Shown here: piece after piece, positions 1,643 through 19,993 of the stretch
Layout of the letters: the number at the start of each line of letters is the position of its first letter
Numbering within the stretch: the first letter of the stretch is position 1
Origin: Kovacikia minuta CCNUW1
GTDB taxonomy: Bacteria; Cyanobacteriota; Cyanobacteriia; Leptolyngbyales; Leptolyngbyaceae
Length of the DNA: 64,000 nt
Assembly: GCF_020091585.1 (NCBI RefSeq)
Contig: NZ_CP083582.1
Location: 3,224,001 to 3,288,000, forward strand
Direction: 5' to 3'
Position numbers and translations under genes: made by a program
Notes under the pieces: generated by a model
What the model saw: only the letters and a program-made list of their open reading frames with translations
Told to the model about the DNA's origin: nothing
Database searches by the model: none

Positions 1643-4278
1643 AACCCAGATTCAGCGGCTCCACGTCGATCGTCAAACTCACCGTGCTGGGGCAGAGGGC
1701 ACGCAATTCAGCTAAATCAGGTAGGTTGGTGGAACTTTCCAGTGGCAGCTTCAGCAAAATTTGCCAGCGGTAACGGCGGGCAACCCGCAAAATCGTTGCG
1801 GGAGCTGGTCCCAACCGTTCTGCTCCAGCCGTTTGTAGGGGGGTAAGGGCATCGGCGACTCGTTCCGCCGCCTTTTGCACAGCAACGGGATTGGAACTAC
1901 TAAACCGAAGCAGAATCAACTGCCGATAGGGAGGGTAGTTCAGCGTTGCCCGATGTTCCAGCTCTGTCTGGATGAAGGCTTCGTAGTCTTGCTGTTGCAC
2001 AGCCCGAATCACCGGATGGTCGGGGGAATAGGTTTGCAGAATCACCTGACCCGGTTCCTCTCCTCGGCCACAGCGTCCGGCAACCTGGGTTAAGGTTTGA
2101 AAGGCGCGTTCGCTGGCGCGATAATCACTCATGGTGGAGCAGCCCATCGGCGGCAACAACCCCCACCAGTGCTACCTGGGGCAGGTCAATTCCCTTCGTC
2201 AGCATCTGGGTGCCCACCAGCAAATCGGCTTCTCCCGCTGCAAACTGGGTCAACAATGCCCGATGGGAACCTTTGGCACGGGTCGTGTCACTATCGAATC
2301 GCAGCACACGCAGGTGGGGGAGCTGGTTGACGAGTTCCTGAACGACCCTCTGGGTGCCGCTACCAAATTGCTTGAAATAGGCGGAGTCACAGGAGGGACA
2401 GGCTTTAGGCAGAAGTTGGGGGTAATTGCAGTAGTGGCAGCGCAACAGAGGATTGGCATCGGCATGGATGTGGTGGTATGCCAGGGAAACATCGCAATTG
2501 GGGCAGGTGACGACATAACCACAACTGCGGCAAGAGACAAAGGTGCTATGTCCCCGCCGATGGATAAATAAAATTCCCTGTTGTCCCCGATCGCCCAAGG
2601 CTTGCAGTGCCGATTGCAGCGATCGACTAAAAATGGAGCGATTCCCCTGGTGCAGTTCCCGGCGCATATCCACCACCTCGATCGGCGGTAACGGACGGGC
2701 ATGAACGCGGCCAGGGAGAGAGAGGTAAAGCACGGATGAAGGATGGGGGATGAAGGATGAAAGACTGGAAGTTTCCGGCTTGTTTTTTATCCTTTCGCCT
2801 TTATCCTTTATCCTTTCCCTTTCATCCCTCATCCCTCCGCCCTCATCCCTGATGGTTACCCAACTCTCCAGCGAGGGCGTTGCTGATCCCAGCACCAGAG
2901 GGCAGTTTTCCAGTTCAGCCCGCCAGTGGGCAACCGTGCGGGCATGGTAGCAGGGAGCGGGTTGATCTTGCTTGAAACTAGAATCGTGTTCTTCGTCTAA
3001 AACGATTAACCCCAGGTTGGGTAAGGGAGCAAAAATTGCCGAGCGGGTGCCAATAATCACCTGGGGTTCTCCGCTCAGGGTTTGCCGCCAGGTATCGTAG
3101 CGTTCCCCTTCTGAGAGGGCACTGTGATACACACAAACCCGACTGCCAAACCGCGCCTGAAAGCGATCGGTGAGTTGGGGCGTCAACCCAATTTCAGGTA
3201 CCAGCACCAGGGCAGATTGCCCTCGCTGCAAAATTGGGGCGATCGCTTGCAGGTATACCTCCGTTTTACCGGAGCCTGTGACACCGTGCAAAAGGACCTG
3301 AGTAAACCCCTTCAATTGCTTGATTTGAGCCAGCGCATTTGCCTGATCAGCAGTCAGCGATTTGGGCGCATCTGCGGCGACGATCGCCCCCGTTTCAGTT
3401 CGCAACACCTCCCGCGACTGGATCACCAGACAGCCCTTAGTTGCCAGGGCCTTGAGGGTTGCTGTGCTGGTATGGCAAAGCTGGAGCAAATCCGCCAACC
3501 AAACTTCGCCACCCTGCCGCTTCAATACATTTAGCACTTCCTGCTGGCGAGGGGTCAAATCTGGCAACAGCGGAGCGGGGATCAGGGTAACTGCCTGCCG
3601 CTGCTTCGGCCGGGGTGGAGTGGGGGGTTCCAGGTAGCTTTCGACCCAACCCGCCTGCAGTAATTCCTGCAACCCCCGGTGGGCAACCTTTACCTGCCGT
3701 TGCAGATGTTGCCAGCTATAGTCCCCTGTTTTGCTGGATTGGAGCAGGGTAAGGAGGTGTTGAGCAGGCAAGGAAAGGGATGAAGGATGGGGGATGAGGG
3801 ATGAAAGTATCTCTTCCCCATCCCCCATCCCTCCGCCCTCATCCCTTTTGATCAGCCGAATCCGTCGCTGTGATCGGGCCAGCAACCCTGGGGGAAGGGC
3901 AACCCGCACGACCTGCATCAGCGGGGTAAGGTAATAATCTGCTGTGCGGTTAAGTAAGGTCCAGTAGGTTGGCGGAAAGAACCCTGGATGGATGACAGCA
4001 TCAATTTCACGCAGTTGGGTGACCTCCAGATTGGGGGGTGGAGAGTCCTGAAGGCGAATGGCGATCGCTCCCACCTGCTGCGTCCCAAACGGAACACTCA
4101 AAATATCTCCGGGTTGCACTCTGGAGCCAACCGGAACGCGGTAGGTAAACAGCCCTTGCGTCCCTGGGCAATCAACCAGCACATCCACCCACCGGGTGGG
4201 CGATCGATTCATTCCATCCGCTGCCAAACCCGCTTCAGCCAGCACGGGAATCCATGAATCAGAAAGTCGGGTAGACAT
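1641..4278 (-). CDS. priA: Primosomal protein N' (replication restart helicase PriA), frameshifted
   Basis: PriA is a DEAH-type 3'-5' DNA helicase that reloads the replisome at stalled forks. Visible parts: N-terminal DNA-binding domain (RWVDVLVDCPGTQGLFTY), Walker A HGVTGSGKTEVYL, helicase motif DEEH, the cysteine-rich zinc region (CRSCGYVVTCPNCD, CHYCNY, CPSC), and motifs V-VI. The frame breaks at about 2130. Upstream it reads ADGLLHHE then stop; one frame over it continues SDYRASERAFQTLTQVAGR, the expected next motif. One extra base (C at 2130 on the plus strand) explains this. Two low-complexity insertions, at about residues 144-168 and 475-514 counted from the ATG at 4278, are encoded by heptamer repeats and keep the frame. 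ATG at 4278 is preferred over TTG at 4308. PriA is important for growth, so a sequencing error is a fair alternative to a real lesion. Confidence 0.88.
2735..2856. repeat. Heptamer inverted repeat inside priA (second insertion)
   Basis: GGATGAA-type 7-mers on one side and TTCATCC/ATCCCTC-type 7-mers on the other form a hairpin about 120 bases long. It lies inside the priA coding sequence and is translated as a charged, serine/proline-rich insert between the PriA helicase subdomains. Confidence 0.8.
3776..3848. repeat. Heptamer inverted repeat inside priA (first insertion)
   Basis: GATGAAGGATGGGGGATGAG and its imperfect reverse complement, about 25 bases apart, sit inside priA between the N-terminal domain and the helicase core. 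The insert adds about 25 residues without changing the frame. Confidence 0.8.
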
Positions 4279-5285
4279 AACAATCGCGATTGATAACGCC
4301 CGCTTCAACCGGACGACTAAATAGAATAGGCAAACTGCGAGATTCCACCCAGGTCAAATGCGCTTTCTGCCCATTGATAGAGTGCAGTATCCAGGCTGAT
4401 ATGAGAGCCTGTTATAGCAAAGTTCACCTAGTCTCTGCAATTCAAAACAATAAGTTGTGATTTCGAATAATTTGCCAATCTTTACTCAGCTTTAGGTAAA
4501 TTTCCATTCCTAGAGAAAGTGGTGTAGGGTAGAGAAACAAATTCTCTGGTTCAATGGGGCGCTCAAAATCCGTTTAATTTTTTTAACGTTTGAACTTCTT
4601 TAAGCGTTATTAAGCGGCAGTATGACTGAACTCAATGCGATCGGTACTATTCAATTTATTTGATCCATTCACATCCTACTTAAGCGACTCAGGATTACTT
4701 TTAGAATCAATTAAGATTCTGCCATTGCTAACAGGGTCAAACAAAGGACGCTTTTGTAGTTAAGCGAACAACCTAAAAAATCACTTCTAGTAGCTTACAG
4801 AAGGCGATTAATCCAACCTCCATTCCTGTGGATGGATTCTGGATTCCTCTCCAATTACCGCCCACCCGATTGGGTTTCATTGTTGCCTATTGTTGCCTGT
4901 TGAGAACTGCGCTATTCCGTAATTGGCTTGTTTAATGTTTTCCCTACTCTTCAGTGGTCTCATCAAATATTGAACAGTTTGGCTTCGACCTCAGTTTAAT
5001 TTGTTACGGATTCTCAATGTTTCGCTTGTTTATCCTCAGGTCCAACTCTTAGTCAATCCTATTTTCACACCATCTCAATATCCACTCTACAGGTTATTTC
5101 TATCGATTATGTCTTCGGTTTATGACTAGCCACCTCCTTGTTCTATTTGTTACCTATCCCTTACTAATCCTAACATCAAATTCAACCTTCAACAAAATTT
5201 GCACACATTGATCAAGCTTAAAAATAAACCCGTTTAATGCCCTAACTCTCCAAAATTCAACCCTCTGTAGTATTCACCTATTCAT
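4279..5285. promoter_or_regulatory. Long AT-rich leader upstream of sigma factor, with phased TTAAGCG motifs
   Basis: About 1 kb without a credible gene separates priA from the sigma factor gene. TTAAGCG occurs at 4600, 4610, 4680 and 4760, so start-to-start distances are 10, 70 and 80 bp, which places all four on one face of the helix. Poly-T tracts lie just before the first copy. The region probably holds promoter and regulatory sites for the sigma gene. The binding protein is unknown. Confidence 0.4.
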
Positions 5286-6527
5286 ATGTATCAAAAGATT
5301 CAGCTTTCCGAAACCGTAGCCCCTTTTCAAACTGAATTTGACTCGCTTGCAGGCGCATCCGAGTTTGATCCAATTGAGTCGCTTCAACGGGTAATCGATG
5401 GGGACTTGCCGATGACGGCAGATCTGGAGCTAGAAGAGCCTGATTTGACCGATCTGAATGAGGTTGACCCCGAAGTGGATGTGGAGCATTTAACTCAGGA
5501 GGAGGGGGAGGTCGATCCCAACGCGGGTGGGGTTGAGCAAATTGCTACCGCTCGCCCTTCTGGCTATAGCAAAACCCTCTCAGATGATGCCGTCGGAGCT
5601 TTCTTCAAGGAGATGGCACGGTATCCTTTGCTAAAACCGAATGAAGAGGTCGAACTCGCCCGTTGTGTGCGTTATTTGGTCGAAGTAGACGCTTTACAGA
5701 GAAGTCTGACTAAGGAATTAGGGCATTCTCCCAATCGGGCTGAACTGGCGGCAGCCCAAAACATGACTGAGCGTCAGTTGGAGTATCGCCTACATCGGAG
5801 CCGCGTCGCTAAACGTAAGATGATTCGCTCCAACTTGCGGTTGGTGGTTTCAATTGCCAAACGCTATCTAAACCGGGGGGTGCCGTTCCTGGATTTGATT
5901 CAGGAGGGAGCTTTGGGGCTGAACCGGGCAACTGAAAAATTTGACCCGGATAAGGGGTACAAATTTTCAACCTATGCCTACTGGTGGATTCGTCAGGGCA
6001 TTACCCGCACGATCGCCAACGATGCCCGCACGATTCGGCTACCGATCCACATTGTGGAGAAACTGAATAAGCTGAAAAAGGCGCATCGGGACTTGCGTAA
6101 AGAACTAAACCGCAACCCAACCGAAGCAGAATTGGCGGCAGCCCTGGAAATGCCCGCTGACCAATTGCGAAACCTTCAGCAGGTACGGCGCAAATCCCTG
6201 TCGCTAAACCACCGGGTTGGCAAAGGAGAGGATACCGAGCTGATGGATCTGCTTGAGGATGGGGACACTCAATCTCCCGAAGCTCAAATGAGTGAAACCA
6301 TGCTGCGCCAGGAAATTTGGGAGGTTTTAGGCGATGTGCTGACGGAGCGCGAAAAGGATATTATCTCTTTGCGTTACGGGCTAAATTCCAGCAAGCCCTG
6401 CACTTTAGAGGAAGTGGGTGGTTTATTCAACCTCTCCCGCGAACGGGTACGGCAGATTCAAAGCAAAGCCATGCGAAAACTGCGCCGTCCCCAAATTGCT
6501 GAACGGTTGAAGAACTGGCTGGTTTAG
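5286..6527 (+). CDS. RNA polymerase sigma factor, sigma-70 family (group 2, RpoD-like)
   Basis: Directs RNA polymerase to promoters. The 413-aa protein has an acidic N-terminus (about 1-95) and a region 1.2 motif around DAVGAFFKEMARYPLL. Region 2 includes NLRLVVSIAKRYLNRGVPFLDLIQEG and the -10 recognition/melting part YAYWWIRQGITRTI. Region 3 follows, then region 4 with the helix-turn-helix TLEEVGGLFNLSRERVRQIQ. It lacks the long 1.1 region of the primary sigma, so it is best placed in cyanobacterial group 2 (SigB/C/D/E), which respond to carbon, nitrogen, heat or light status. Length resembles SigC, but I cannot assign it firmly. The gene is monocistronic behind a 1 kb leader. No strong ribosome binding site precedes the ATG. 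Confidence 0.9.
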   Translation: MYQKIQLSETVAPFQTEFDSLAGASEFDPIESLQRVIDGDLPMTADLELEEPDLTDLNEVDPEVDVEHLTQEEGEVDPNAGGVEQIATARPSGYSKTLSDDAVGAFFKEMARYPLLKPNEEVELARCVRYLVEVDALQRSLTKELGHSPNRAELAAAQNMTERQLEYRLHRSRVAKRKMIRSNLRLVVSIAKRYLNRGVPFLDLIQEGALGLNRATEKFDPDKGYKFSTYAYWWIRQGITRTIANDARTIRLPIHIVEKLNKLKKAHRDLRKELNRNPTEAELAAALEMPADQLRNLQQVRRKSLSLNHRVGKGEDTELMDLLEDGDTQSPEAQMSETMLRQEIWEVLGDVLTEREKDIISLRYGLNSSKPCTLEEVGGLFNLSRERVRQIQSKAMRKLRRPQIAERLKNWLV

Positions 6528-6598: not shown

Positions 6599-7579
6599 CT
6601 AGCGATTTACAGTGCTCATGTCGGAGTAGCGATCGCCTGCTGCTACGCCTTTTGGGGCAACCGCTTCAATTCGCTTCAGGTCCTCTGGCGTCAGTCGAAT
6701 ATCCGTTGCAGCAATATTTTCCTCCAAATATTGGCGTCGTTTGGTGCCTGGGATGGGAACGATATCCTCCCCCTGGGTTAGCAACCAGGCGAGGGCAAGT
6801 TGGCTGGGTGTGGCTCCTTTTTCAGCCGCGATCGCTTTCACCTGTTCCACCAGTTGCAGATTTTTGGTAAAATTCTCGCCCTGAAACCGAGGGGCAGATC
6901 GACGGTAATCATCGGGGGGCAGATCTGCCGGGCTGGTAAACTGACCCGATAGGAACCCGCGCCCCAGGGGGCTGTAGGGCACAAATCCAATCCCCAACTC
7001 CCGGATCGTGGGCAGAATTTCATCCTCTGGCTCACGACTCCAGAGGGAATATTCCGATTGCAGGGCAGAGATGGGATGAACCGCCTGTGCCCGTCGGATT
7101 GTTGCTGGAGCCGCCTCCGAAAGCCCCAGATAGCGAACTTTACCCTGTTGCACCAGTTCCGCCATTGCCCCCACAGTGTCTTCGATCGGCACCGTAGGAT
7201 CGACCCGATGCTGATAATAAAGATCAATCACATCCACCCCCAACCGTTTGAGGGAAGCATCGCAGGCTTGACGGACATATTCTGGTTTGCCACTAATGCC
7301 CTGCCAACCGCCATCTTCTGTACGCACATTGCCAAACTTCGTCGCCAGCACAACTTGATCTCGCCGATCGCGAATAGCTTTGCCCACCAATTGTTCATTG
7401 GTAAACGGACCGTACATATCAGCAGTATCGAGGAAATTAACTCCCAATTCCAGCGCCCGATGAATCGTGGCGATCGCCTCCGTTTCATCCCGCCCGCTGT
7501 AGAACTCAGACATCCCCATACAGCCCAGTCCTAGCTCAGAAACGGTCAGTCCCTGATTGCCAAGTTTTCTGATTTTCAT
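6599..7579 (-). CDS. Aldo/keto reductase
   Basis: NAD(P)H-dependent reductase of the AKR superfamily, acting on aldehydes or ketones in the cytosol. It is full length (326 aa, TIM barrel). The catalytic tetrad is visible: D51 and Y56 (DTADMYG), K81 (ATKFGN) and H124 (YYQHRVDP). The C-terminal cofactor motif is [18 protein letters not shown] at 7579 has GGAGAAACC upstream. The merR gene lies upstream on the same strand, and a palindrome at 7718-7732 identical in core to the one before merR lies between them. The MerR protein therefore probably controls this gene. MerR/AKR pairs of this sort usually respond to reactive carbonyl or oxidative stress; that role is inferred. Confidence 0.93.
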
Positions 7580-7710
7580 TTTGGTTTCTCCATGTGTTGT
7601 TTGATTAGCGATCAGCTTTTCATCCCGCGCTCAAAACACCTCTGGTGCAGGCATTATTTCCCTTGAAGAAGCGGCGTCAACGACAGATCTAAGAAAATCC
7701 AGGGGATTGA

Positions 7711-7738
7711 CCTAACATTTACGTTAACGTAAGATTAA
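7711..7738 (-). promoter_or_regulatory. Probable MerR operator before aldo/keto reductase
   Basis: TTTACGTTAACGTAA (7718-7732) is a perfect palindrome about 140 bases upstream of the reductase start. Its core ACGTTAACGT recurs upstream of merR (8167-8176), which is good evidence for a shared regulator site. Confidence 0.6.
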
Positions 7739-7749
7739 ACCCAAAAAAA

Positions 7750-8143
7750 TTACTGGGTAGCCGACTGTTCATCGATCCATTTCTGGATGCGATCGATATT
7801 GGCTTTTAGTTCCGAGCGAAACGTGCTCTAAATCCTCAATCCGTTCCTCCGTTTCCCAAAGATGCTGTCTGAGAATTTCCACAATTTTGCGTTTTCCTTC
7901 CAGTAGGGTTGGTTCTTCAAAATAAAGGGGCGCGATGCTGGCAATTTCCTCTAAACTCAACCCTAAGCCCTTGAGATTGTTGATCTTTTGCAGTCGGGCT
8001 AATGCTTCTTCGGTATAGTACCGAAAACCCTCACCCTCACGCTCATTTGGACTCAGCAACCCCAAACTTTCGTAATAGCGAATCGTGCGAGGAGTCACTC
8101 CCGCCCGCTTTGCCAATTCTCCTATCCGCATTCTGTCGTTCAC
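7750..8143 (-). CDS. MerR family transcriptional regulator, C-terminal frameshift
   Basis: DNA-binding regulator with a winged helix-turn-helix at the N-terminus (MRIGELAKRAGVTPRTIRYYESLGLL) and a dimerising coiled coil. In the literal frame the coil ends abnormally (EDLEHVSLGTKSQYRSHPEMDR, stop at 7769). Dropping one base near 7822 restores FRSELKANIDRIQKWIDEQ and a stop at 7750-7752, exactly the C-terminus expected for this family. The start is GTG at 8143 or ATG at 8131. The minus-strand promoter upstream reads TTGACG, 18 bases, TATAAC, the long spacer typical of MerR-controlled promoters. The ACGTTAACGT palindrome overlaps the -35 and spacer, suggesting autoregulation. No cysteine-rich metal loop is visible, so it is not an obvious metal sensor. 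Confidence 0.85.
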
Positions 8144-8335: not shown

Positions 8336-10651
8336 ATGACCCTCTTGCGTACCTGCATTGAACAGGGGGATTGCTTGACCTATCAGCCAAAGCCGATTAG
8401 TACCGCCAATGTAACACTTACAGCAGAATACCTAAAACTGACAGAGGTGCTTGCCCGCAACATCCACGAGATTTGGGCAAAGCATCAGTTCGATTTGGGC
8501 TGGTCTCAGGGTTCGCAATATAGCGAGATCGATCGTCAGCATCCCTATTTAATTCCCTACGATGAGTTGCCTGCTGCCGAAAAACAAAGCAGACGGCTGG
8601 CAATTTTGGAAACGTTAAAAACGCTTTTGGCTTTAGGATATCGAGTTGAAGCAAGCGATGCAGCCAATCTCAGCTTGTCATTGGAAGATCAGGATCTGGC
8701 TGGAATTTTGCAAGGCTTGAAAACGTCTTCTGAACTGAACCTCGCCTCCCTGCTCGCTTTACGACGGGAGACGATTCGACTCCAACCTCGAACACCTGAC
8801 ATTTATCGCGCCCTGGGGGATGCCATTCTCCAGTTGGGCGAGCCATTGATGGCCTATGACGTGTTGGCGGAGGGGCTGAAATACTGGCCCACAGATTTAC
8901 AATTGCAGCAACTCTTGGCTCTGTCCCTAGCCCGCAGTGGGGCGACGGTCGCCGCCAATTCCCTGTTGTTGAAACTGGTGCAATCGGGGCAACAGGATGA
9001 GGAAACGCTGGGACTGTTGGCACGCACCCATAAGGATTTGTGGCTCCAGGCGGTCGATCCGGAGGTCCGCGATCGCCAGCTTCAGTTGGCAACAGAGCGC
9101 TATCAGCAGGCCTATCAATTAAATCGAAGCGCCTGGACGGGAATTAATGCTGCCACGCTGGCAATGATCAATGGGCAGGTAGAGCAGGCAAAATCGTTGG
9201 CTCATAAGGTGCGGGAAGATTGTCTGCAAAAATTGTCAAACAGCTTTAACAGAAGCAGTGATGACTACTGGCAGTTGGCGACGCTGGGCGAAGCAGCGTT
9301 AATTCTGGGGGAAGGGGGGGAGGCAGAAACGTTCTATGGTCAGGCAGTAGAAGTGGGGCAGGGGCGATTTGGCGATTTGAGTTCCAGTCGTCGCAATGCA
9401 ATGCTGCTGGCAAAGCACCTGGAGATCGATAGCCAGCAAATTAAGCAATGGTTTCAGGTTCCCCGAGTGGTTGTTTTCTGTGGTCATCGGATAGACCATC
9501 CTGACCGTCCTCAACCCCGCTTTCCAGCCCATCTGGAACCTAAAGTTTACCGGGCAATTTGCGATCGCCTGCATCAGCTGAATGCGCGTTTGGGGTATTC
9601 CCTGGCAACCTGTGGCTCCGATATTTTGTTTCTAGAAGCAATTCGGGAAATGAAAGGCGAATTGCACATCGTTCTGCCCTACGATCGGGAGCAATTCATC
9701 CGGGATTCGGTTGACATTATTCCTGGAGCAAATTGGAAAGAACGGTTTGAGCAACTGATGCAACAGGCAACGGAGGTCATTATTGCCTCAAATCGGAAGC
9801 TCCAGGAAGGAAACGTGGTCTATGAATACTCCAATCGGCTGTTGCATGGGCTGGCAAAGATGCGGGCGGAGCAGCTTGGGACCGACCTGGTACCGCTAAC
9901 GGTTTGGGATGGCAAGCCAGGGGATGGACAGGGAACCGCCAATAACATTGCCTTTTGGCAACAGTGGGCAGAGCAGGTGGAAGTGATTGATCTGGAGGCA
10001 TTGCTCCATTCCAGCCCTTTAAGGATCGCTACCGCAGGTTCTATTTCAACCCAACAATTCGCTGCGCCCGCTTTAGCAACACCCCTGATTTCAACCCCTA
10101 CCCTGACGATTGAACGGCAAATTCGGGCGCTGTTATTTGCGGATGTGGTTCACTACAGCCAGTTAGAAGAAAGCCAGTACTTGCCTTTTGTGGAACACTT
10201 TTTGGGGGCGATCGCGGATTTGTCTAGCCAGCCAAACCACCCACCCTTGCTGAAGAATACCTGGGGGGATGCCCTTTACTTTGTATTTTTAACGGTGAAA
10301 CAGGCGGGTCAATTTGCGCTGAACCTGTGCGATTTGATTCAAAGCATTGATTGGAGCAGTCGGGGATTGCCTGAGCAGTTAAACCTACGAATCGCACTAC
10401 ATGCAGGACCGGTAGACCGAAATGTTGATCCAATTACTGGCCAGGTCAACTACATTGGCACCCACGTCACCCATACGGCACGCATCGAACCCATCACACC
10501 CCCCGGCAAGGTTTATGCCAGTCAGGCGTTTGCTGCGATCGCCGCCTCCGAAGGCTTAAAAAGTTTTACCTGTGACTACGTCGGACAAATGCCCTGGGCA
10601 AAGCACTATGGCACATTTCCCACCTATCATGTTCGCCGTTGTGTCCCCTGA
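8336..10651 (+). CDS. RyR-TPR-SLOG-like protein with class III adenylate/guanylate cyclase-type domain
   Basis: A 771-aa multidomain protein. Residues about 30-105 match the RyR domain (IHEIWAKHQFDLGW, QHPYLIPYDEL, LKTLLALGYRVE). Residues about 120-375 form helical TPR-like repeats of the kind annotated as TRAFs-binding/DUF4071. Residues about 378-560 look like a Rossmann-type SLOG/LOG nucleotide-sensing domain (VVFCGHRIDHPD, ATCGSDILFLEA, LPYDREQFI). Residues about 595-771 are a class III cyclase homology domain, with metal-binding aspartates in FADVVHYS and WGDALYF. The usual catalytic N-x-x-x-R is T-H-T-A-R, so Asn is replaced while Arg is kept; the substrate lysine before GD also appears shifted or absent. 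Activity is therefore uncertain. No signal peptide or membrane segment is seen. A cyclic-nucleotide or ligand-sensing signalling role is inferred. The gene stands alone, next to a repeat-rich island. Confidence 0.8.
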   Translation: MTLLRTCIEQGDCLTYQPKPISTANVTLTAEYLKLTEVLARNIHEIWAKHQFDLGWSQGSQYSEIDRQHPYLIPYDELPAAEKQSRRLAILETLKTLLALGYRVEASDAANLSLSLEDQDLAGILQGLKTSSELNLASLLALRRETIRLQPRTPDIYRALGDAILQLGEPLMAYDVLAEGLKYWPTDLQLQQLLALSLARSGATVAANSLLLKLVQSGQQDEETLGLLARTHKDLWLQAVDPEVRDRQLQLATERYQQAYQLNRSAWTGINAATLAMINGQVEQAKSLAHKVREDCLQKLSNSFNRSSDDYWQLATLGEAALILGEGGEAETFYGQAVEVGQGRFGDLSSSRRNAMLLAKHLEIDSQQIKQWFQVPRVVVFCGHRIDHPDRPQPRFPAHLEPKVYRAICDRLHQLNARLGYSLATCGSDILFLEAIREMKGELHIVLPYDREQFIRDSVDIIPGANWKERFEQLMQQATEVIIASNRKLQEGNVVYEYSNRLLHGLAKMRAEQLGTDLVPLTVWDGKPGDGQGTANNIAFWQQWAEQVEVIDLEALLHSSPLRIATAGSISTQQFAAPALATPLISTPTLTIERQIRALLFADVVHYSQLEESQYLPFVEHFLGAIADLSSQPNHPPLLKNTWGDALYFVFLTVKQAGQFALNLCDLIQSIDWSSRGLPEQLNLRIALHAGPVDRNVDPITGQVNYIGTHVTHTARIEPITPPGKVYASQAFAAIAASEGLKSFTCDYVGQMPWAKHYGTFPTYHVRRCVP

Positions 10652-11409: not shown

Positions 11410-12496
11410 CGCCAATTCAAATCTGAAGTGCACCACCTCTAGAAGCTTCCCCTAGAGGGACTCAAAAGGGTAACCTGGCATTTATCACAACAACAGGAAA
11501 CCCTAATGAGCTATACGCAGCTTAGCGCAGATGAGCGCCTGGAACTCTATCGATTGAGACAAAGGGGTGATTTGTCCCTGCGGGCAATTGCCATTCGAAT
11601 GGGACGTTCCCACAGCACCATTTCTCGTGAACTCAAACGCAACCAAAGCTCAGAGCAGATCTATCTACCGGACTTGGCTCAAGCTCAGCAGCACGTTCGT
11701 CGGCAGCAGTCCAAGCAACCGTTTGTGGGCATCTCTGAGGGTTGTTTGGCGAGGGTGAAAGCGCAACTTCGGCAGTACCATAGCCCGCAACAGATTGCCG
11801 GTTCACTCAAGCTCAAAGGACTGGAGTGGGTGAGCCATGAGACCATCTATCAGATGATTTATCACAACTATGCCGATATGGGTGCCTATCGTGGCTATTT
11901 ACGGCACTCTCACATCCGACGGCAGCATCGGAGCGCCAAGCGACAGAAACGAGGATTGATTCCCAATCGAGTTGGGATTGAACACAGACCTGTGATTGCA
12001 GAACAAAAGAGTGAAATTGGGCATTGGGAAGGCGATACGATCGTCGGGGGTAATCATTTGGGAGCGATTGCGACGCATGTAGACAAAGCCTCAAAGTTTC
12101 TGGTTGCACGAGTGATGAAAGACCGAACAGCAGGGGAGATGAACCGTGTCAGTATTGCAGCGTTTGAGTCGATTCCAAAAGAGCGACGTAAGACGATGAC
12201 GTTTGATAATGGCAAGGAGTTTAGCAAGCATGAGCAACTAACAGCGAGGTTGGGAGTGCAATGTTATTTTGCCAATCCATATCATTCTTGGGAACGTGGG
12301 TTGAATGAGCATACGAATGGATTGATTCGACAGTTTTTCCCAAAAGGAACGAATTTTAGAATCGTCAAGCAAGATGAAGTCGATCAAGTAGTTGAATTGA
12401 TTAATCATCGACCGAGACAATCGTTAGGTTATCGAACTCCTCATGAGGTATTCTGGGGTCAGTCAGGTGATGGTGCACTTCAGATTTGAATTGGCG
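11410..12496 (+). mobile_element. IS30-family insertion sequence nested in IS630 copy 1
   Basis: A 1087-bp element with perfect 26-bp terminal inverted repeats (11410-11435 and 12471-12496, beginning CGCCAATTCAAATCTGAAG). It is flanked by a 3-bp TTT duplication (11407-11409, 12497-12499), as expected for the IS30 family. The interrupted IS630 3' end can be read directly from copy 2, which confirms the boundaries. Confidence 0.9.
11506..12489 (+). CDS. IS30-family transposase
   Basis: Intact 327-aa DDE transposase. The N-terminal helix-turn-helix (SLRAIAIRMGRSHSTISRELKRN) binds the IS ends. The catalytic core has D in EGDTIVGG, D in TFDNGKEF, and E in RGLNEHTNGLIRQFFPKGT, the IS30 signature. 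The stop codon lies within the right inverted repeat. All parts look functional, so the element may be active and is probably the most recent insertion here. Confidence 0.93.
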   Translation: MSYTQLSADERLELYRLRQRGDLSLRAIAIRMGRSHSTISRELKRNQSSEQIYLPDLAQAQQHVRRQQSKQPFVGISEGCLARVKAQLRQYHSPQQIAGSLKLKGLEWVSHETIYQMIYHNYADMGAYRGYLRHSHIRRQHRSAKRQKRGLIPNRVGIEHRPVIAEQKSEIGHWEGDTIVGGNHLGAIATHVDKASKFLVARVMKDRTAGEMNRVSIAAFESIPKERRKTMTFDNGKEFSKHEQLTARLGVQCYFANPYHSWERGLNEHTNGLIRQFFPKGTNFRIVKQDEVDQVVELINHRPRQSLGYRTPHEVFWGQSGDGALQI

Positions 12497-13172
12497 TTTA
12501 TTTTTGATACTTCTCCCCCAATTTACAATCAAATCACCCTCATTCAGTAATTTATTGACAAGAGCTTCCAGCTCTTCAATTGATTTAAATAGGCGATTAG
12601 AGATAAACTCTTTTGCTGAGTGCCAAACCAATTCTGCCAGATTGTAGTCAGGGCTGTATTCAGGTAGGAATTCTAAAATCAGATTAGGCATCTTCTTCTT
12701 AATTATTTCTAGAATATCTTGACGCTTGTGAATACTGGCATTGTCCAGAATAATGATGATTTTCGGTCCATTTTGTTCAAAGTTATCTATATCATTCCCT
12801 GTTTCTGCCCACTCATTTTTGAGTTCCTGATAAAATCCTTCAAGAACACTCATGAAACTCTCTCCAGTACCTTTTGAAATGAAATCAACAATTCTTTTCT
12901 TGTCAGAAAATCGTACTCCTCCCATAACACTAAATCGCCCTTTTCTCCGTCGTCCCGAAACCTTATTTCGGCTACCTTTCTTAGTCCACCTCCGTCTTCT
13001 AATCACTCTTAAACTAAATCCAGTCTCATCCCAAAACCACACCTGAAGGCGCTCTGGAGATTCTTTCGTAATCCGTAAATACTCCTCTAGCTTGGCTTTG
13101 AATAGCTTTCTTTTCTCTGGATCCTGCTTGTCTTTAAGGCTGTATTTTGACCAGATATAAACATATTTTTTT
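12401..13172 (-). pseudogene. IS630 transposase OrfB (catalytic part), copy 1, 3' end replaced
   Basis: Catalytic half of an IS630 DDE transposase: WFWDETGF, IIIILDNASIHK and PEYSPDYNLAELVW supply the DDE/D residues. It should be joined to OrfA by slippage on an A8 run (T at 13166-13173 on the plus strand). The intact copy 2 ends IKNKGNAINAI. Here the IS30 insertion replaces that with a read-through tail ending at 12401, so only the last few native residues are lost. Confidence 0.75.
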
Positions 13173-13584
13173 TACTGAGAATTCTCCTAACCTGACTCCC
13201 ACTTAATTTTATCCCTGTCTCCTCCTCTAAGTAAGTTGCAAGTCTCTGAGCAGTCCAATTGCCAAACTCATAACCGTATTCTTGGGGTTCTTTATCGATT
13301 ACTTCTAGCAGCAAATGGATATACTCTTCTGTCGCTTTGTGGTAGTTGCCTGCCATTCTCGCATCCGTTAGGCTGTCTAAGTTGCTAGGGTCTCCATGAG
13401 TACACCAATAAGCAACTTTTCGTAAGGAACAACCTAAAAAATCTGCTATTTCCTGTTGTGTTCTTCCGGCATTCCTTAATAGGAGAATTAGAATTCTTTC
13501 TCGGATTTCAGGATGCTCATGAAACTTTAATTGTCCTTGCAATTTAAGTTTCTCTTCGGGAGTTAAATAATTCTTGGTTGTCAT
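13087..13584 (-). CDS. IS630 transposase OrfA (DNA-binding part), copy 1
   Basis: A 165-aa helix-turn-helix part of the IS630 transposase (RTQQEIADFLGCSLRKVAYW, then the second domain WTAQRLATYLEEETGIKLSGSQVRRIL). It is identical in protein sequence to the copy at 14640-15137. The frame ends soon after the A8 slip site; a -1 shift continues into KYVYIWSKYSLKD and on to the catalytic domain. Producing transposase by frameshifting is common in this family. Confidence 0.88.
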   Translation of the reverse strand: MTTKNYLTPEEKLKLQGQLKFHEHPEIRERILILLLRNAGRTQQEIADFLGCSLRKVAYWCTHGDPSNLDSLTDARMAGNYHKATEEYIHLLLEVIDKEPQEYGYEFGNWTAQRLATYLEEETGIKLSGSQVRRILSKKNMFISGQNTALKTSRIQRKESYSKPS

Positions 13585-13945
13585 GTTAACTTCAAAAATC
13601 TATCATCAATTATATGTAATTTAGATGCTTAACAGCTTAAAGCCCCTGAAAAATTGAATTCTTCCATAATTTCAGTAGCAGTCTCCCTTCCATCCCAAAC
13701 ATCAGATAGGCGGCAATTATCCGAATCAAAATATTTAGAACCCTGTCCCATCCAGAGGAGAAACTCTTGATGAACTTTGGGTATTGATAACCCTAAATGT
13801 TGCTCCAATGAGCTTACTTGATCAGGCGTACATGGCTTAACGTCATTGTCGCGGTTTAACAATTGATTTAGATCTTGATAACGTTGTTTAGCTTTTTCCA
13901 AATACATCTTATTTCTCCTAATTACAGATTAGAGCCATCTCCAGT

Positions 13946-14148
13946 GCGATCGCCCTCTCTCTCGTAGGATGCGTTAGTGCCAACGTAACGCATCAATTCA
14001 ATGATTTAGTTTGTTCATCTCAAATTCCCAATGAGATTTTTATTGTTTGCCCAATTCAATTTATTTGAATCGCTTTCCTTTGAAGTTGTTCAATTAACCA
14101 ATTGATGCGTTACGCAAAGCTAACGCATCCTACGCGAGGGGCGATCGC
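13946..14148. repeat. HIP1-bounded palindromic module, copy 2
   Basis: A 203-bp element with GCGATCGC at both ends and inverted arms carrying GTAGGATGCGTTAG and CGTAACGCATCAATT. The central ~85 bp differs from copies 1 and 3. It supplies the last codons and stop of the neighbouring DUF4291 gene, which appears truncated by it. Confidence 0.75.
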
Positions 14149-14501
14149 CATTCAGCTTCAGTAGGATAGATAGTGGAAGTGTAATTCGATGGCACTGCAT
14201 TTGCCAAAATTTCATCAAAAGCTGAACGCTTCAACCAAATAGCTAATACAACTTCCTGTCGATCTTTTGTTCCCCAGCCTGATCGATGCATCATCCAAAG
14301 AAAGCTTGGCTTAATCCAACTCATACGGCTAAACTTAAATCCATCACCAAAATAGCCGTTTCTAGCAGCGAAGTGACCGATCTCTGGGCAAAAAGCTTGA
14401 TAGACAACAACACAATCCGAGTCAAATTGAGCTAATATATGCTGTCCGGAGTTTGGATAACTACTGGCTTTGTTTATGTATAATTCTGTCAGCAGTTCCA
14501 T
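14130..14501 (-). pseudogene. DUF4291 family protein, 3'-truncated
   Basis: The 123 residues match the N-terminal two thirds of DUF4291 proteins: ILAQFDSDCVVVYQAFCPEIG and the conserved RMSWIKPSFLWMMHRSGWG-TK. The family is usually about 190-220 aa and continues after the EW motif with a QWDPER-like segment. Here the frame passes from EAEWR into the palindromic module (13946-14148) and stops at once. No remainder is found beyond the module, so the 3' part was deleted. DUF4291 has no settled biochemical function. The truncated protein might still be made. Confidence 0.7.
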
Positions 14502-14639
14502 ATTAAAAAGTAATTACGCTAGATCTCCACCTACTATTTAGTCAATTGTAAGCCCAACAATGGCCTTAGATGTTGCCACAATGCTAAGCTGTTAAGCATC
14601 TAAATTACATATAATTGATGATAGATTTTTGAAGTTAAC

Positions 14640-15137
14640 ATGACAACCAAGAATTATTTAACTCCCGAAGAGAAACTTAAATTGCAAGGACAATTAAAGT
14701 TTCATGAGCATCCTGAAATCCGAGAAAGAATTCTAATTCTCCTATTAAGGAATGCCGGAAGAACACAACAGGAAATAGCAGATTTTTTAGGTTGTTCCTT
14801 ACGAAAAGTTGCTTATTGGTGTACTCATGGAGACCCTAGCAACTTAGACAGCCTAACGGATGCGAGAATGGCAGGCAACTACCACAAAGCGACAGAAGAG
14901 TATATCCATTTGCTGCTAGAAGTAATCGATAAAGAACCCCAAGAATACGGTTATGAGTTTGGCAATTGGACTGCTCAGAGACTTGCAACTTACTTAGAGG
15001 AGGAGACAGGGATAAAATTAAGTGGGAGTCAGGTTAGGAGAATTCTCAGTAAAAAAAATATGTTTATATCTGGTCAAAATACAGCCTTAAAGACAAGCAG
15101 GATCCAGAGAAAAGAAAGCTATTCAAAGCCAAGCTAG
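14640..15137 (+). CDS. IS630 transposase OrfA, copy 2
   Basis: 165-aa DNA-binding part, identical in protein sequence to the copy at 13087-13584. The A8 slip site is at 15051-15058 in the context AGT-AAAAAAAA-TATG. A -1 shift leads into OrfB (about 15051 onward, WFWDETGF at about 15187), which is then cut by the ISKra4-type element. Confidence 0.88.
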   Translation: MTTKNYLTPEEKLKLQGQLKFHEHPEIRERILILLLRNAGRTQQEIADFLGCSLRKVAYWCTHGDPSNLDSLTDARMAGNYHKATEEYIHLLLEVIDKEPQEYGYEFGNWTAQRLATYLEEETGIKLSGSQVRRILSKKNMFISGQNTALKTSRIQRKESYSKPS

Positions 15138-15320
15138 AGGAGTATTTACGGATTACGAAAGAATCTCCAGAGCGCCTTCAGGTGTGGTTTTGGGATGAGA
15201 CTGGATTTAGTTTAAGAGTGATTAGAAGACGGAGGTGGACTAAGAAAGGTAGCCGAAATAAGGTTTCGGGACGACGGAGAAAAGGGCGATTTAGTGGGGT
15301 GCATCCCAGTCTTGTAAGTC

Positions 15321-16124
15321 TTAGAGTGAGAGTTGCCCATTGAGATAAGCGCAACGGTGCAGCAACACTTGCGGCACATTGTCCGCTTTCCACTGTGCCC
15401 CGGTCAGTTTGATACGTGCGCTGATCTGCTTCACCGTCGATTCAATCGTGCCCGACCCAATTGAAATGCCTTCGGCTTGGTAGTAACTATAGTTGACAAT
15501 GCGATGACGATGTTTGGTGAGATAGGCGATGAAGTTGTCAACCTGTTCATGCTGCCAACCCGTGAATTGCTCAATTGCGCCATCTACGTTACCCTGCCAC
15601 AACAAGCTTTCCACAGTGGCTAATCGTTGCAGTGAACCACCGACTTTGTACAGATTTTCGACCAGATGAAACCAATCTAAAATCTCACGTCGTTGGCTGA
15701 CTTCAGCAATCCCTGCAAACAAGTTCCAAATCCCATCATGACCATCACCGAGACAAGTAACCGGAGTGTTCAGCGGTTGTTCGTTGACCCATTGGACTAA
15801 TTGCTCATTGTCTTGCAAAAATGCCTCACAGCAATGTCCATGCAGATTCACAGCTTTGTAATCCTGCCATCTACAAATCTCTCCTTTTGGAGTACGAATC
15901 CGCACCTTGCCGCCATCAATACTCATTTCCTCCACTGCGGTTTCAATTCGTGGCAACTCGAAGCACTGCCGATGCACTAACCGTTGCTGTGTCCCTCTGG
16001 AAACCTTCATTCCCGTTAGAATCGGAATATCTTGAGCAGATCGCTCATAGGACACATTCGCACTCAAAATCAAGCAGCATTTCTCCAAGTAAGGACTTAA
16101 CTGAGTGCGCTCTTTCACGTTCAA
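15321..16124 (-). CDS. ISKra4-family transposase, catalytic part
   Basis: 267 aa with EEMSIDGGKVRIRTPKGE, CLGDGHDGIWNLFAGI, EILDWFHLVENLYKV and GSGTIESTVKQISARIKLTG, the conserved DDE blocks of ISKra4 transposases. The frame opens at TTG (16124) within the TTGA that ends the upstream ORF, so it is probably translated by coupling or frameshift from it. Confidence 0.8.
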   Translation of the reverse strand: MNVKERTQLSPYLEKCCLILSANVSYERSAQDIPILTGMKVSRGTQQRLVHRQCFELPRIETAVEEMSIDGGKVRIRTPKGEICRWQDYKAVNLHGHCCEAFLQDNEQLVQWVNEQPLNTPVTCLGDGHDGIWNLFAGIAEVSQRREILDWFHLVENLYKVGGSLQRLATVESLLWQGNVDGAIEQFTGWQHEQVDNFIAYLTKHRHRIVNYSYYQAEGISIGSGTIESTVKQISARIKLTGAQWKADNVPQVLLHRCAYLNGQLSL

Positions 16125-16438
16125 GACTTTCGCTTGGTTTTCGGTGAGGCTGATGCTGCCAAGGATGCTTTTGAGTTGCCGACTTCGTCCGCTGCTAGGA
16201 CCGCTTGCCCTTGTGATAAAAAATTACCGATTTCTGGACTGACCTGCTCCAGGACATGTCCTCTTACTGCCGCTTCGATGCCTTCAAGGGTGGTTAATTG
16301 CTCTGGGGCAGTTTCATCGTAGAGCAATGCCGCTATCGCACGAGCGTGAGCTTGAATTTGTTGAAGTTTCTCAGCATCCATCGTCGGCATCCTTGGGAAA
16401 TAGTAGGGGGTCCCTTTAGCATAATCGAGTCTTCCCAA
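16121..16438 (-). CDS. ISKra4 element upstream ORF (transposase N-terminal part)
   Basis: 105 aa, mainly helical, overlapping the catalytic ORF by 4 bases (TTGA). ISKra4-type elements commonly split the transposase into two overlapping frames, so this is probably its N-terminal domain. The helices around QIQAHARAIAALLYDETAPEQLTTLEGIEAAV fit that reading. Confidence 0.65.
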   Translation of the reverse strand: MGRLDYAKGTPYYFPRMPTMDAEKLQQIQAHARAIAALLYDETAPEQLTTLEGIEAAVRGHVLEQVSPEIGNFLSQGQAVLAADEVGNSKASLAASASPKTKRKS

Positions 16439-17997
16439 TTCGCTGCCTAAGTATTCCTACTCATTGCATAACTGGGATGCACCCGATTTAGTGTTATGGG
16501 AGGAGTGCGATTTTCTGACAAGAAAAGAATTGTTGATTTCATTTCAAAAGGTACTGGAGAGAGTTTCATGAGTGTTCTTGAAGGATTTTATCAGGAACTC
16601 AAAAATGAGTGGGCAGAAACAGGGAATGATATAGATAACTTTGAACAAAATGGACCGAAAATCATCATTATTCTGGACAATGCCAGTATTCACAAGCGTC
16701 AAGATATTCTAGAAATAATTAAGAAGAAGATGCCTAATCTGATTTTAGAATTCCTACCTGAATACAGCCCTGACTACAATCTGGCAGAATTGGTTTGGCA
16801 CTCAGCAAAAGAGTTTATCTCTAATCGCCTATTTAAATCAATTGAAGAGCTGGAAGCTCTTGTCAATAAATTACTGAATGAGGGTGATTTGATTGTAAAT
16901 TGGGGGAGAAGTATCAAAAATAAAGGAAATGCTATTAATGCAATTTAGATGCACACTAGCTTATCTCCTTGAAAATCGAACTTTGTTGAGCCAACTCCTG
17001 CTGGAGGATCAGATACCCATCTAGAGCAAAGAGTGGCCGCATCGTCGTATATTAAAAGCTCACCAGCTTCACTGCCGTTGGCATAGGATGTGTAGGTTCC
17101 TAACCAAAGATTTCCTATTGAGTCCACACTAGGTTCAATGGCTCGATTAGCTGAAGCATTTGCCATCATACCTGGCTTGCCGTTTTGTGCTAATCGAGAG
17201 ATAAGAATATAATCCGAATCTTTAGGCGAATCCCAAGGCGAAACAGTCGAACCAATTAGCCACGCTCCTCCTTGCGGACTATTTAAGAGTTTTGCTCGCC
17301 ATAATGGTGGAAGCAAGTACTTCTGGAGGATTGTACCGTCGATTGATACCCTCACTATTGCACACGAATGATCCGGTAAAATAGCTGCAACAATAGCATC
17401 GTCAGAGAACACTAAAGCTTCCGATATACAGACTAAGTTATGACTATCACTATCTTCTCTAGTGAGAATTTCACCTGAATACGCTTCGACTCGAATTAAG
17501 CCATTGCTTGTAGCAGCCCAGATAGTCTGATCCGGAGCTAAGGTCATAGGATGTTGTAGCCCGTAATCTCGTGAAATATAACGTTCGTAGGAAAGATTAC
17601 CATCAACATCAATTCGAGCTAAAGCGCTGTTACCGCCTCCCATGCCAAACCATAAATCACCTGAATTTCCCACTAGAATTTCAGTCGTGATGGATGTCGG
17701 CAAATTAATGGTTCGAACAACTTGACCGACTTCATTAATAAAGTGAATACTATTGTCGCCGCTAGCACAAACAATGCAATCAGGATTTAGAAGTACTGGA
17801 GATCCCCAAAATCCCCACGAAGAAGGACAGTGCCAAAGAGGGTTTCCTTCGAAGTCAATTTTAATTAAACCAGTTCCATCTAAGATGGCAGCTCCGTCAG
17901 AAAGTATCAAAGGGTGAGAGATTAGATCATAGGTTAGACTATAAACCGAGTTTATAGGGAATGACCATTTTTTAGTAATTTGCTTCATATTACTCAT

Positions 17998-18433
17998 TGA
18001 TTCTAGAACTTCTCACTCCACAGAATGATTTTGAACCGAATTCCTAAATCTGTTCCAGTCGCTTCTAGGAATTACAATGTTAGCGTCACCCCTCTCTACT
18101 TTAAAGCGAGGATTCGGGGATAGTTGTCCACTTAAGCGGATACTATCTGGGACTAAGTTTTCCCTGAGAAAAGTTCTTAGTGCGATCGCCGATCTTTTGT
18201 AGGATGCGTTAGTGCGATCGCTGATCTCCTGTAGGATGCGTTAGTTTGCGTAACGCATCAATTCAAGGGCTTAATCTACACATTTCAAATCACAATTGAG
18301 TTTCTATTACTTCTTGAATCAAATTTTTTGTAGCGCTCCAATTAATAAATCAATGCGTTACGCTTGCAGCTAACGCATTCTACGCAAGGGGCGATCGCAC
18401 TTCCGCCAAAGCTAATTGAGTTTAAGGGGCGAT
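17998..18433. repeat. Spacer between propeller and WD40 genes, mostly repeat
   Basis: No gene. A partial module arm (18181-18213) is followed by the complete module copy 3. The promoter for the propeller gene must lie in 17998-18180, but no clear boxes stand out. Confidence 0.5.
18214..18398. repeat. HIP1-bounded palindromic module, copy 3
   Basis: 185 bp, with GCGATCGC at each end and the same GTAGGATGCGTTAG / CGTAACGCATCAATT arms. The centre is nearly the same as in copy 1 (AATCACAATTGAGTTTCTAT and following bases), which points to recent dispersal of a unit. Confidence 0.75.
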
Positions 18434-19558
18434 CTACAAGTGATTGGCGATCTCGCTGATATCCCAGATTAGAAGTTGCCCAGGGTAACTACCAGTAATC
18501 AACTCTTTTCCATCAGGAGTAAAGGCAAGTGCCATAATATGCCTTTCTTTATCGGATTGCCCCAACAACCTTCCTGTTTGAACATCCCAGAGTCGCAAGT
18601 CATGATACCTCATACCTGTAGCCAATTCACGTCGCCCCGAATAACCAACGGTTGCGAGAATTTTACTATTTGGTGAGAAGGCAAGTGCATGAGCACTATC
18701 ATAAAAATGCCCTGAAAAAATGCGAATTCGGTTGCCTGTTTCCAAGTTCCATAAACTGATTCCTTTGTTAGCATCTCCGCGAGCCATTAGTTTGCCATTT
18801 GAGGCAAATGCAACTTTAGAAAATACATCCTCTACCCCAATTTCATTTTTAGAATCTGCCAGTGTTTGAATCAACTTACCAGTTTTAATGTCATAGGTAT
18901 GAACCGTACCAGCGAGATCCGCTCCTCTCACAAAGTTGCTATCAGAAGAGAAGCCAATTTGAACAATTCTGCGCGGCATAATGAAAACATATTTCAACTG
19001 CCCTGTGTATAGATTCCAAACTCTGATCGCATTATCGTCTCTCCCACCACTTGCCACAATTTTTCCGTCTGGTGAAAAAGCAATCGTTGTTATGTAGGAA
19101 CCCTGTGAAGCAAGTTTTTTCTCTAATTTGCCCGTTTGAGCATTCCAAAGTGTAAGTTGCTTATTCGGTTGACTAAAATCACCTGTTAAAAGAGCGTTTT
19201 TATCGGGAGAAAAGGCAACAGCTGTGACTGAAGAATTCTGGCTTGTAAGTGGCAAGCTAAATAGGATGTGACCACTCCTTCTGTCCCATACTATGAAAGG
19301 ATTACTGTAGTTGATGATCGCTAAGCTGTTTCCATCTGGAGATATTGCAACATCGGATATTCCAGCCATAGAGTTGGATAATTGTAGTTGTAAAGTCTTT
19401 GGTTCGGGGAGTGAAGAGAAGTGTGAAATGACAGAAGAACAAGAACAATTAAACAGAGTGGCAGAGATCACAAGCAAACCTAGCAGGCTCTCTTGCATCC
19501 GCTTTGCTCCCCAACTCTTAGCTCTACCATTTATGCCCATATTCGTCAGCTTAATCAT
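18434..19558 (-). CDS. WD40 repeat lipoprotein
   Basis: A 374-aa protein with an N-terminal hydrophobic segment ending in a lipobox-like LFNC|S (LLGLLVISATLFNCSC), so likely a membrane-anchored lipoprotein. About seven WD40 repeats follow, e.g. VTAVAFSPDKNALLTGDF, ITTIAFSPDGKIVASGGRDD, AHALAFSPNSKILATVG and IMALAFTPDGKELITGSYPG, forming a propeller that probably binds partners outside the cytoplasmic membrane. The ATG of MQESLL further in may be the true start, since it gives a normal-length signal. Function is not evident from neighbours. Confidence 0.82.
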   Translation of the reverse strand: MIKLTNMGINGRAKSWGAKRMQESLLGLLVISATLFNCSCSSVISHFSSLPEPKTLQLQLSNSMAGISDVAISPDGNSLAIINYSNPFIVWDRRSGHILFSLPLTSQNSSVTAVAFSPDKNALLTGDFSQPNKQLTLWNAQTGKLEKKLASQGSYITTIAFSPDGKIVASGGRDDNAIRVWNLYTGQLKYVFIMPRRIVQIGFSSDSNFVRGADLAGTVHTYDIKTGKLIQTLADSKNEIGVEDVFSKVAFASNGKLMARGDANKGISLWNLETGNRIRIFSGHFYDSAHALAFSPNSKILATVGYSGRRELATGMRYHDLRLWDVQTGRLLGQSDKERHIMALAFTPDGKELITGSYPGQLLIWDISEIANHL

Positions 19559-19639
19559 TTCTCATCTATAGTACGATGGCCCTCTCCATAGATTGGGTTG
19601 AGTACGATCGCCGATTTTTTGTAGATACTGTTTTGCGAG

Positions 19640-19993
19640 TCAAGGGGTGGGGCAAAGTTTGGTCGGGTCAAAGGGCTGCCTTGAATGCAAAACACCGTAG
19701 ATGATGCGGATCAACTTATGCATGACCGCTCCGACGACCTGCATCTTGGTTTTGCCCGCTGCGAGTAAGCGATCGCGAAAGGCTTGAATTTGAGGACAAC
19801 GCCGGATCAGGTTCAAGGCTGGGAAATAAAGCACTTTACGCAGACGGAGGCTGCCAATTTTACATAATCGGGTTTTGCCTTGAACGGATGTTCCCGATTG
19901 ATGTTCTTGCGGGGTTACCCCTGCAAACGCTGCGAGTGCGATCGCCCTCTCTCGCTTAGGTTGGGTTGAGTCTGCGAAACCCAACATCCACAT
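19640..19993 (-). pseudogene. IS110-family transposase C-terminal remnant
   Basis: The readable stretch from LAAFAGVTPQEHQSGTSVQG through LRKVLYFPALNLIRRCPQI to GAVMHKLIRIIYGVL is the C-terminal Transposase_20 domain of IS110 elements. The DEDD catalytic N-terminal half is missing. The first ~20 residues come from a palindromic repeat of the GTTGGGTTGAGTC type. It is unlike the intact IS110 at 59933-60868, so it derives from another element. Confidence 0.75.

Follow-up and report, generated by a model that had tools for sequence, protein, structure and literature searches.

One gene of the window, by which the whole analysed stretch of 64,000 nucleotides from Kovacikia minuta CCNUW1 (contig NZ_CP083582.1) is meant, encodes a single protein that joins a RyR domain, a TPR solenoid with a TPR-S region, a SLOG-fold domain and a class III nucleotide cyclase domain. 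Judged from its sequence and from the genes that surround its relatives, this protein may be the receptor-plus-output component of a signalling relay initiated by TIR proteins and probably directed against phages; the probability of this reading is put at about 0.5. It draws on the recurrence of TIR genes beside the relatives and on a residue-level match between the RyR domain and phage proteins that act on TIR-made messengers. Each single domain is already known, and a limited literature search found neither a description of the RyR–TPR-S–SLOG–cyclase combination nor a link between host RyR domains and TIR genes.

Domain architecture and distribution of the family

The open reading frame is intact and is present in one copy in the 8.56 Mb genome. 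Its N-terminal part is matched by the Pfam RyR family with E = 1e-27 (96.6 bits against a curated cut-off of 27.4), and the solenoid by TPR-S with E = 9e-22 (78 bits against a curated cut-off of 27.6) and by MAP3K_TRAF_bd (PF13281; residues 189–321, E = 2e-11), the family formerly named DUF4071. In carrying TPR-S, the protein resembles the TPR-S proteins (PF20308; MAP3K/ASK TRAF-binding region PF13281). The Pfam family Guanylate_cyc matches residues 599–752 with E = 4e-7. A full-length AF2 model built with 50 relatives reached a pLDDT of 89 and a pTM of 0.80, with low confidence in the linker (residues 566–588) between the SLOG-fold and cyclase domains. The cyclase part of the model was matched by Foldseek to solved class III cyclases (E about 1e-8, target TM about 0.8), which were also found by a PDB profile.

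The third, Rossmann-type domain gave no match in Pfam and PDB sequence searches. Modelled separately, it reached a pLDDT of 91.7 in AF2, and DprA, ShosA, the Moco carrier protein and LOG were among its top PDB matches in Foldseek, which places it in the SLOG superfamily; the TM-scores of these matches are modest (0.3–0.45), so that the assignment holds at the level of the fold only. Thus, the RyR, TPR/DUF4071-like, Rossmann and cyclase domains that a preliminary description had read from the letters of the DNA are borne out, the RyR and TPR parts by Pfam and the SLOG and cyclase folds by the structure prediction it had proposed as a check. Taken together, the sequence features describe three likely nucleotide-sensing modules joined to a cyclic-nucleotide-type enzyme domain. 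TPR-S was reportedly predicted by Burroughs and Aravind in 2020 to be a sensor of NAD+-derived signals. SLOG is described as the fold of the signal-binding domain of ThsA (PMC11204291).

Table 1. Features of the gene, of its product and of the flanking DNA (positions in the window; residue numbers refer to the protein)
Feature	Position	Strand	Basis or remark
Whole gene, RyR – TPR-S solenoid – SLOG – class III cyclase	8336..10651	+	771 aa
RyR (R12-type) domain, aa 16-105	8381..8650	+	PF02026; human RyR2 and Bacteroides RyR structures by sequence
Ligand residues H44 (8465-8467), W47 (8474-8476), H69 (8540-8542), equivalent to RyDEP H75/W78/H100	8465..8542	+	alignment, codons
R86, at the place of RyDEP catalytic D117	8591..8593	+	alignment
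TPR solenoid, aa 111-372	8666..9451	+	PF20308, PF13281, helices in model
TPR-S within the solenoid, aa 177-276	8864-9163	+	PF20308
SLOG-fold domain, aa 376-560	9461..10015	+	AF2 model and Foldseek to DprA/ShosA/LOG
Class III nucleotide cyclase domain, aa 593-768	10112..10639	+	PF00211, PDB profile, Foldseek
Metal aspartates D603 (10142-10144) and D645 (10268-10270); N641 (10256-10258) at the substrate-lysine position	10142..10270	+	alignment, codons
N705 (10448-10450, Asp/Cys specificity position), T712 (10469-10471, transition-state Asn position), R716 (10481-10483)	10448..10483	+	alignment, codons
PriA (-) and sigma factor (+), synteny common to the sister locus in G025	2125..6527		upstream
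IS-rich island: transposase ORFs, SUKH and DUF4291 fragments, WD40 gene	11506..19993		downstream

Genomes of 84,980 species were scanned, and 80 loci were taken from 189 relatives. The relatives occur in Cyanobacteriota, Chloroflexota, Acidobacteriota, Thermodesulfobacteriota, Myxococcota, Bdellovibrionota, Verrucomicrobiota, Planctomycetota, Pseudomonadota, Actinomycetota and other phyla, many of these phylum labels coming from metagenome bins. The tree contains one large RyR-rich clade and another clade that lacks RyR and holds the Magnetospirillum group; the nearest relatives of the window protein are cyanobacterial. A RyR domain above the cut-off was found in only 3 of 386 sampled cyanobacterial genomes, and in the two other RyR-bearing cyanobacteria no TIR gene was found near RyR in the 11–13 kb taken.

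Several variants of the architecture were seen in passing. Three cyanobacterial proteins (L008, L009 and L012) have the TPR-S and SLOG core without a cyclase, preceded by an N-terminal domain, unmatched in Pfam, that looks nucleotide-hydrolase-like by eye. At L059:8012-11731, an ABC-type/AbiEii-like ATPase domain is in frame with TPR-S and cyclase, and a Sinorhizobium plasmid encodes a stand-alone SLOG protein of 186 residues (L141:5989-6546) with TIR genes, one of them TIR-nSTAND1, within 5 kb. A further cyanobacterial homologue (L063:6028-8343) is broken over three frames, through decay or sequencing error.

The RyR domain and neighbouring TIR genes

Phage RyR-domain proteins have been described that cleave (RyDEP) or sequester 2′cADPR and 3′cADPR, which TIR proteins produce as messengers in Thoeris (PMC13232231, 2026 preprint). 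RyDEP is a homodimer and uses the residues H75, W78, H100 and D117, while most of its homologues tested did not cleave (PMC13232231). The RyDEP reference, gp78 of phage DyoEdafos, was aligned with 22 RyR domains of cyclase proteins, that of the window protein included. The three ligand residues H75, W78 and H100 correspond to H44, W47 and H69, with identical +3 and +25 spacing in RyDEP and in the window protein. Among the 22 domains, W78 is present in all, H75 is lost only in the degenerate L021, and H100 is kept in all except L002 and L035. At the position of D117, 17 domains have Asp, those of the window protein, L002 and L005 have Arg, L017 has Lys and L021 has Ala. Since the binding residues are kept but the catalytic acid is replaced by R86, the window RyR domain is predicted to bind a cADPR-type signal without cleaving it. 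It differs from the phage RyR proteins (R12, PF02026) also in its setting, as these are anti-defence proteins and mostly stand alone, whereas here the domain belongs to a host fusion with TPR-S, SLOG and cyclase.

TIR genes recur beside the relatives of the window protein. With one locus counted per 70%-identity cluster, TIR was found in 13 of 64 ORFs within 300 bp versus 4 of 236 ORFs beyond 2.5 kb (p = 8e-7), as detected by a TIR HMM that was built from 12 of the neighbours and, being seeded from them, favours them somewhat; those tested were confirmed by Pfam. A TIR gene lies within 300 bp in 10 of the 16 RyR-bearing clusters versus 4 of the 27 RyR-less ones (p = 0.002, kinship ignored), and the RyR–TIR association was not significant in phylogenetically independent pairs, of which too few were informative. 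Many of the adjacent TIR genes are on the same strand, with gaps below 140 bp or with overlap. Their products include TIR-WD40 proteins (L015 and L057 by Pfam; WD40-rich proteins at L018 and L038 by the TIR HMM), TIR_2 proteins with TPR (L020, L026), kinase and TPR (L022), FGE (L050) or nSTAND1 and TPR (L059), and TIR proteins without a further Pfam domain (L028, L031, L051). By eye, the TIR sequences examined keep a glutamate in the region of the catalytic Glu of TIR NADases. Several loci without an adjacent TIR gene carry STAND-type ATPases, namely nSTAND1 at L037 and L054 (with TIR slightly further off), DUF4062-NACHT at L053, NB-ARC-TPR in L094 (the L005 locus) and AAA_16 at L021. Many relatives, e.g., the Magnetospirillum group, have no TIR gene nearby. 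The preliminary description had pointed to the recurrence of RyR and SLOG domains in bacterial conflict and signalling systems and had proposed a survey of homologues' neighbours for effectors; this theme is upheld and takes the more specific form of a TIR link, with TIR genes as the recurrent neighbours and PycTM adjacent in Priestia only.

Moreover, the parts of the protein occur in relatives as fusions, as separate neighbouring genes and in changed order, which is evidence for a common pathway. On a plasmid of Priestia aryabhattai (NZ_CP128553.1, 56612-68887; L138), PycTM, two hypothetical genes, a cyclase-TPR-S gene and a stand-alone RyR gene follow one another on one strand, and a divergent run includes a TIR protein, so that the plasmid holds what would be the proposed relay in four parts. 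The domain order of the Priestia cyclase-TPR-S protein is reversed, with the cyclase first, and it has the canonical Asn (VNTAAR) and NTWGD, while the stand-alone RyR protein has all of the H, W, H and D residues. In an Armatimonadota relative (L049), a separate divergent RyR gene adjoins the gene of a cyclase protein that lacks RyR, and a TIR gene lies at a distance of 1 kb; on a Tolypothrix plasmid, a cyclase fragment lies 93 bp from a TIR gene.

The window copy itself has no TIR gene next to it, the nearest being about 23 kb upstream. A relay at this locus would have to work in trans, unless the partner gene has been lost here. Between the sigma factor and the cyclase gene, the window holds aldo/keto reductase and MerR genes (6599-8143), a stretch absent in the genome of the closest relative (G025). 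Downstream of its own copy, G025 has an ORF of 414 residues that Pfam does not match, a gene for an OprB porin and, 3.2 kb away, a triple-TIR-WD40 gene; triple-TIR proteins 57–61% identical to that of G025 are encoded elsewhere in the window genome, which has 24 TIR matches in all. TIR genes are numerous in cyanobacterial genomes generally. Two candidate partners were considered and rejected: the TIR-NB-ARC-TPR gene 23 kb upstream (L132) is too distant, given the 24 TIR matches genome-wide, and the WD40 gene at 18434-19558, taken as a decayed TIR partner, is about 26% identical to the TIR-WD40 protein of G025 over the WD40 repeats and lacks TIR.

The latter gene (minus strand) encodes a 374-residue WD40 protein with a lipoprotein-like N-terminus and lies inside the IS-rich island. 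There, two identical 165-residue IS630-type HTH ORFs in opposite orientation (13087-13584, minus strand; 14640-15137, plus strand) flank the SUKH and DUF4291 fragments. The island that the gene borders is an IS-rich stretch with IS insertion downstream of the gene; the "broken SUKH gene" reported in it is weakly supported, as 13632-13907 matches the first 38 of the 125 positions of SMI1_KNR4 at 19.3 bits, below the curated cut-off of 25.4.

The surroundings of the window copy bear on a reading outside immunity, in which RyR and SLOG would sense adenine nucleotides, or metabolites derived from NAD, and adjust cAMP or cGMP accordingly, the TIR neighbours being one of several partners. The R12 domain of human RyR3 binds ADP and AMP-PCP near Trp881 (RyR1 numbering; PMC12627627), a residue that corresponds in position to W47; the synteny with PriA and the sigma factor is of a housekeeping kind, there was no PADLOC match, and RyR-less members without TIR are common. 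Such a metabolic sensor is considered unlikely in view of the strong TIR adjacency of RyR-bearing members across phyla and of the Priestia cluster of PycTM, RyR, cyclase and TIR.

The signal could also run in the reverse direction, with the cyclase product activating a neighbouring TIR effector and RyR acting as a brake by sequestering or eliminating what TIR makes. A cUMP-activated NADase, PycTIR, does exist in Pycsar (PMC11224242), and the His-Asp dyad with which RyDEP cleaves its ligand is retained in 17 of the 22 RyR-cyclases. However, the scanned TIR neighbours show WD40, TPR, kinase, FGE or STAND modules, with no cyclic-nucleotide-binding domain among the matches listed, and the subclade of the window protein has lost the catalytic acid, so that this direction appears quite improbable. 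The order from TIR to cyclase is favoured, since RyR would suit the part of an ADPR-type receptor and since PycTM, an effector that responds to cyclic nucleotides, stands in the Priestia operon.

The cyclase active site

The window protein combines the class III fold and both metal aspartates with the loss of the transition-state Asn-x-x-x-Arg motif, which reads T712-x-x-x-R716 in a gap-free alignment, codon 712 being ACC; the substrate lysine, which specifies purines, is replaced by N641, and N705 occupies the partner position. The two aspartates, the T-x-x-x-R motif and the missing lysine had been noticed in the preliminary description and are confirmed. Across 85 aligned sequences, D603, N641 and D645 are invariant, and R716 is present in 84, although the count for N641 carries some bias, as NTWGDA was part of one search pattern. 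Asn641 is found as well in members obtained with the other pattern (NTWGDG: L021, L024, L030, L036) and by tblastn (Priestia, Rhizobium), while a relative on a Caballeronia plasmid has a residue other than Asn at this position. The absence of the substrate lysine is a family-wide trait, with Asn in all 85 aligned sequences. The lysine position is also substituted in Rv1900c. This class III cyclase shares the fold and is among the profile and Foldseek matches of the window domain; in contrast to the Rv1900c type, many members of the window family have the transition-state Asn replaced as well.

Position 712 is far more variable: Asn occurs in 47 of the 85 sequences, Ser in 26, Thr and Cys in 4 each, and Val and Ala in 2 each. 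Asn, and hence the full Asn-Arg pair, is found in the closest relative (L002, 71% identical), and Ser in L005. A quick maximum-likelihood tree of 72 dereplicated sequences, in 33 of which Asn is replaced, implies at least 11 switches between Asn and other residues and 16 changes over all states. A residue other than Asn accompanies RyR, being found in 19 of 24 sequences with RyR versus 14 of 48 without it (p = 1e-4, kinship ignored); for an association between Asn and TIR, the phylogenetically independent pairs that were informative were too few. The cyclase is the best conserved part of the protein, with a mean pairwise identity of 46% (SLOG 41%, RyR 39%, TPR 31%), and it is 86% identical between the window protein and L002.

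The invariant metal aspartates, the conservation of the domain and the repeated switching at position 712 indicate that the cyclase is probably a selected, working enzyme rather than a dead fold, with a position 712 that is tolerant or tuned; Thr712 is likely to reduce or adjust the activity but not to eliminate it. Accordingly, there is less reason to take T-x-x-x-R as the mark of a non-catalytic fold or of an unusual product, as had been suggested earlier, since homologues that carry Asn once realigned were indeed found (L002, L003, L004, L006, L007). Catalytic death through T712 is disfavoured by Asn in the sister protein, by the repeated reversals and by the strong conservation of the domain. 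A regulatory pseudo-cyclase, which would bind nucleotide or dimerise without turnover, has in its favour the frequent replacement of Asn, the missing lysine and the inactive cNMP cyclase domains of other bacterial conflict systems (PMC7159879), but it is hard to reconcile with invariant aspartates, an Arg kept in all but one sequence, the intact Asn-Arg pair of L002 and the repeated switching between Asn and Ser, and is thought rather improbable.

A related cyclase on a plasmid of Rhizobium beringeri (L140:5980-7053) also has Thr at the Asn position; it is fused to NUDIX, and a second NUDIX gene follows.

A possible relay of two messengers

In the proposed relay, a TIR protein with a sensor of its own (WD40, TPR, kinase or STAND) would meet a trigger and convert NAD+ into an ADP-ribose-type nucleotide. 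This nucleotide would be bound by the RyR domain, perhaps together with TPR-S and SLOG, as the residue-level match to the phage RyR proteins suggests. Binding, probably by way of dimerisation, would then turn on the class III cyclase, and an effector would respond to the cyclic mononucleotide; such an effector is seen as a neighbour gene only on the Priestia plasmid, in the form of the Pycsar protein PycTM. In the genome of the window, the TIR partner would need to be supplied by another locus. The relay would thereby be partly Thoeris-like and partly Pycsar-like, with a TIR-made signal passing through RyR to the class III cyclase and a cNMP firing the effector. This two-messenger form is put forward as tentative, its odds being clearly short of even.

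The likeness to both systems is partial. As in Thoeris, which consists of the TIR protein ThsB and the SLOG-bearing ThsA, a TIR gene adjoins a SLOG-fold protein in relatives of the window protein. Unlike in Thoeris, the output domain is a cyclase and not SIR2, RyR and TPR-S are added, and no TIR gene lies near the window copy, though many relatives have one; Pfam and PADLOC found in the window protein no domain of a ThsA-type effector (SIR2-SLOG or a known variant). With Pycsar (PycC plus PycTM or PycTIR), the protein shares the class III cyclase fold, and PycTM adjoins the Priestia relative. It departs from Pycsar in that sensors are fused to the cyclase and that no Pyc effector accompanies it, PycTM being absent from the window genome by PF18967; nor did PADLOC match it to a PycC-type cyclase. 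A general link to Pycsar was rejected, since PycTM is absent from 31 of the 34 genomes surveyed and that of the L021 genome does not adjoin the cyclase; a Pycsar effector beside the cyclase was found in one relative only.

Within the family, nature supplies a set of cyclases whose transition-state asparagine, a textbook residue, was replaced again and again. Should the two-messenger relay prove true, two bacterial immune messenger systems would be joined in one pathway, and host RyR domains would gain a function in receiving TIR-made nucleotide signals. The bacterial RyR domains would then be the true receptors and the phage RyR proteins their counterpart, which would account for the presence in phages of RyR domains able to bind these signals or break them down. 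Finally, there would be a bacterial precedent for cADPR acting via a RyR domain, which would bear on the long dispute over the animal ryanodine receptor.
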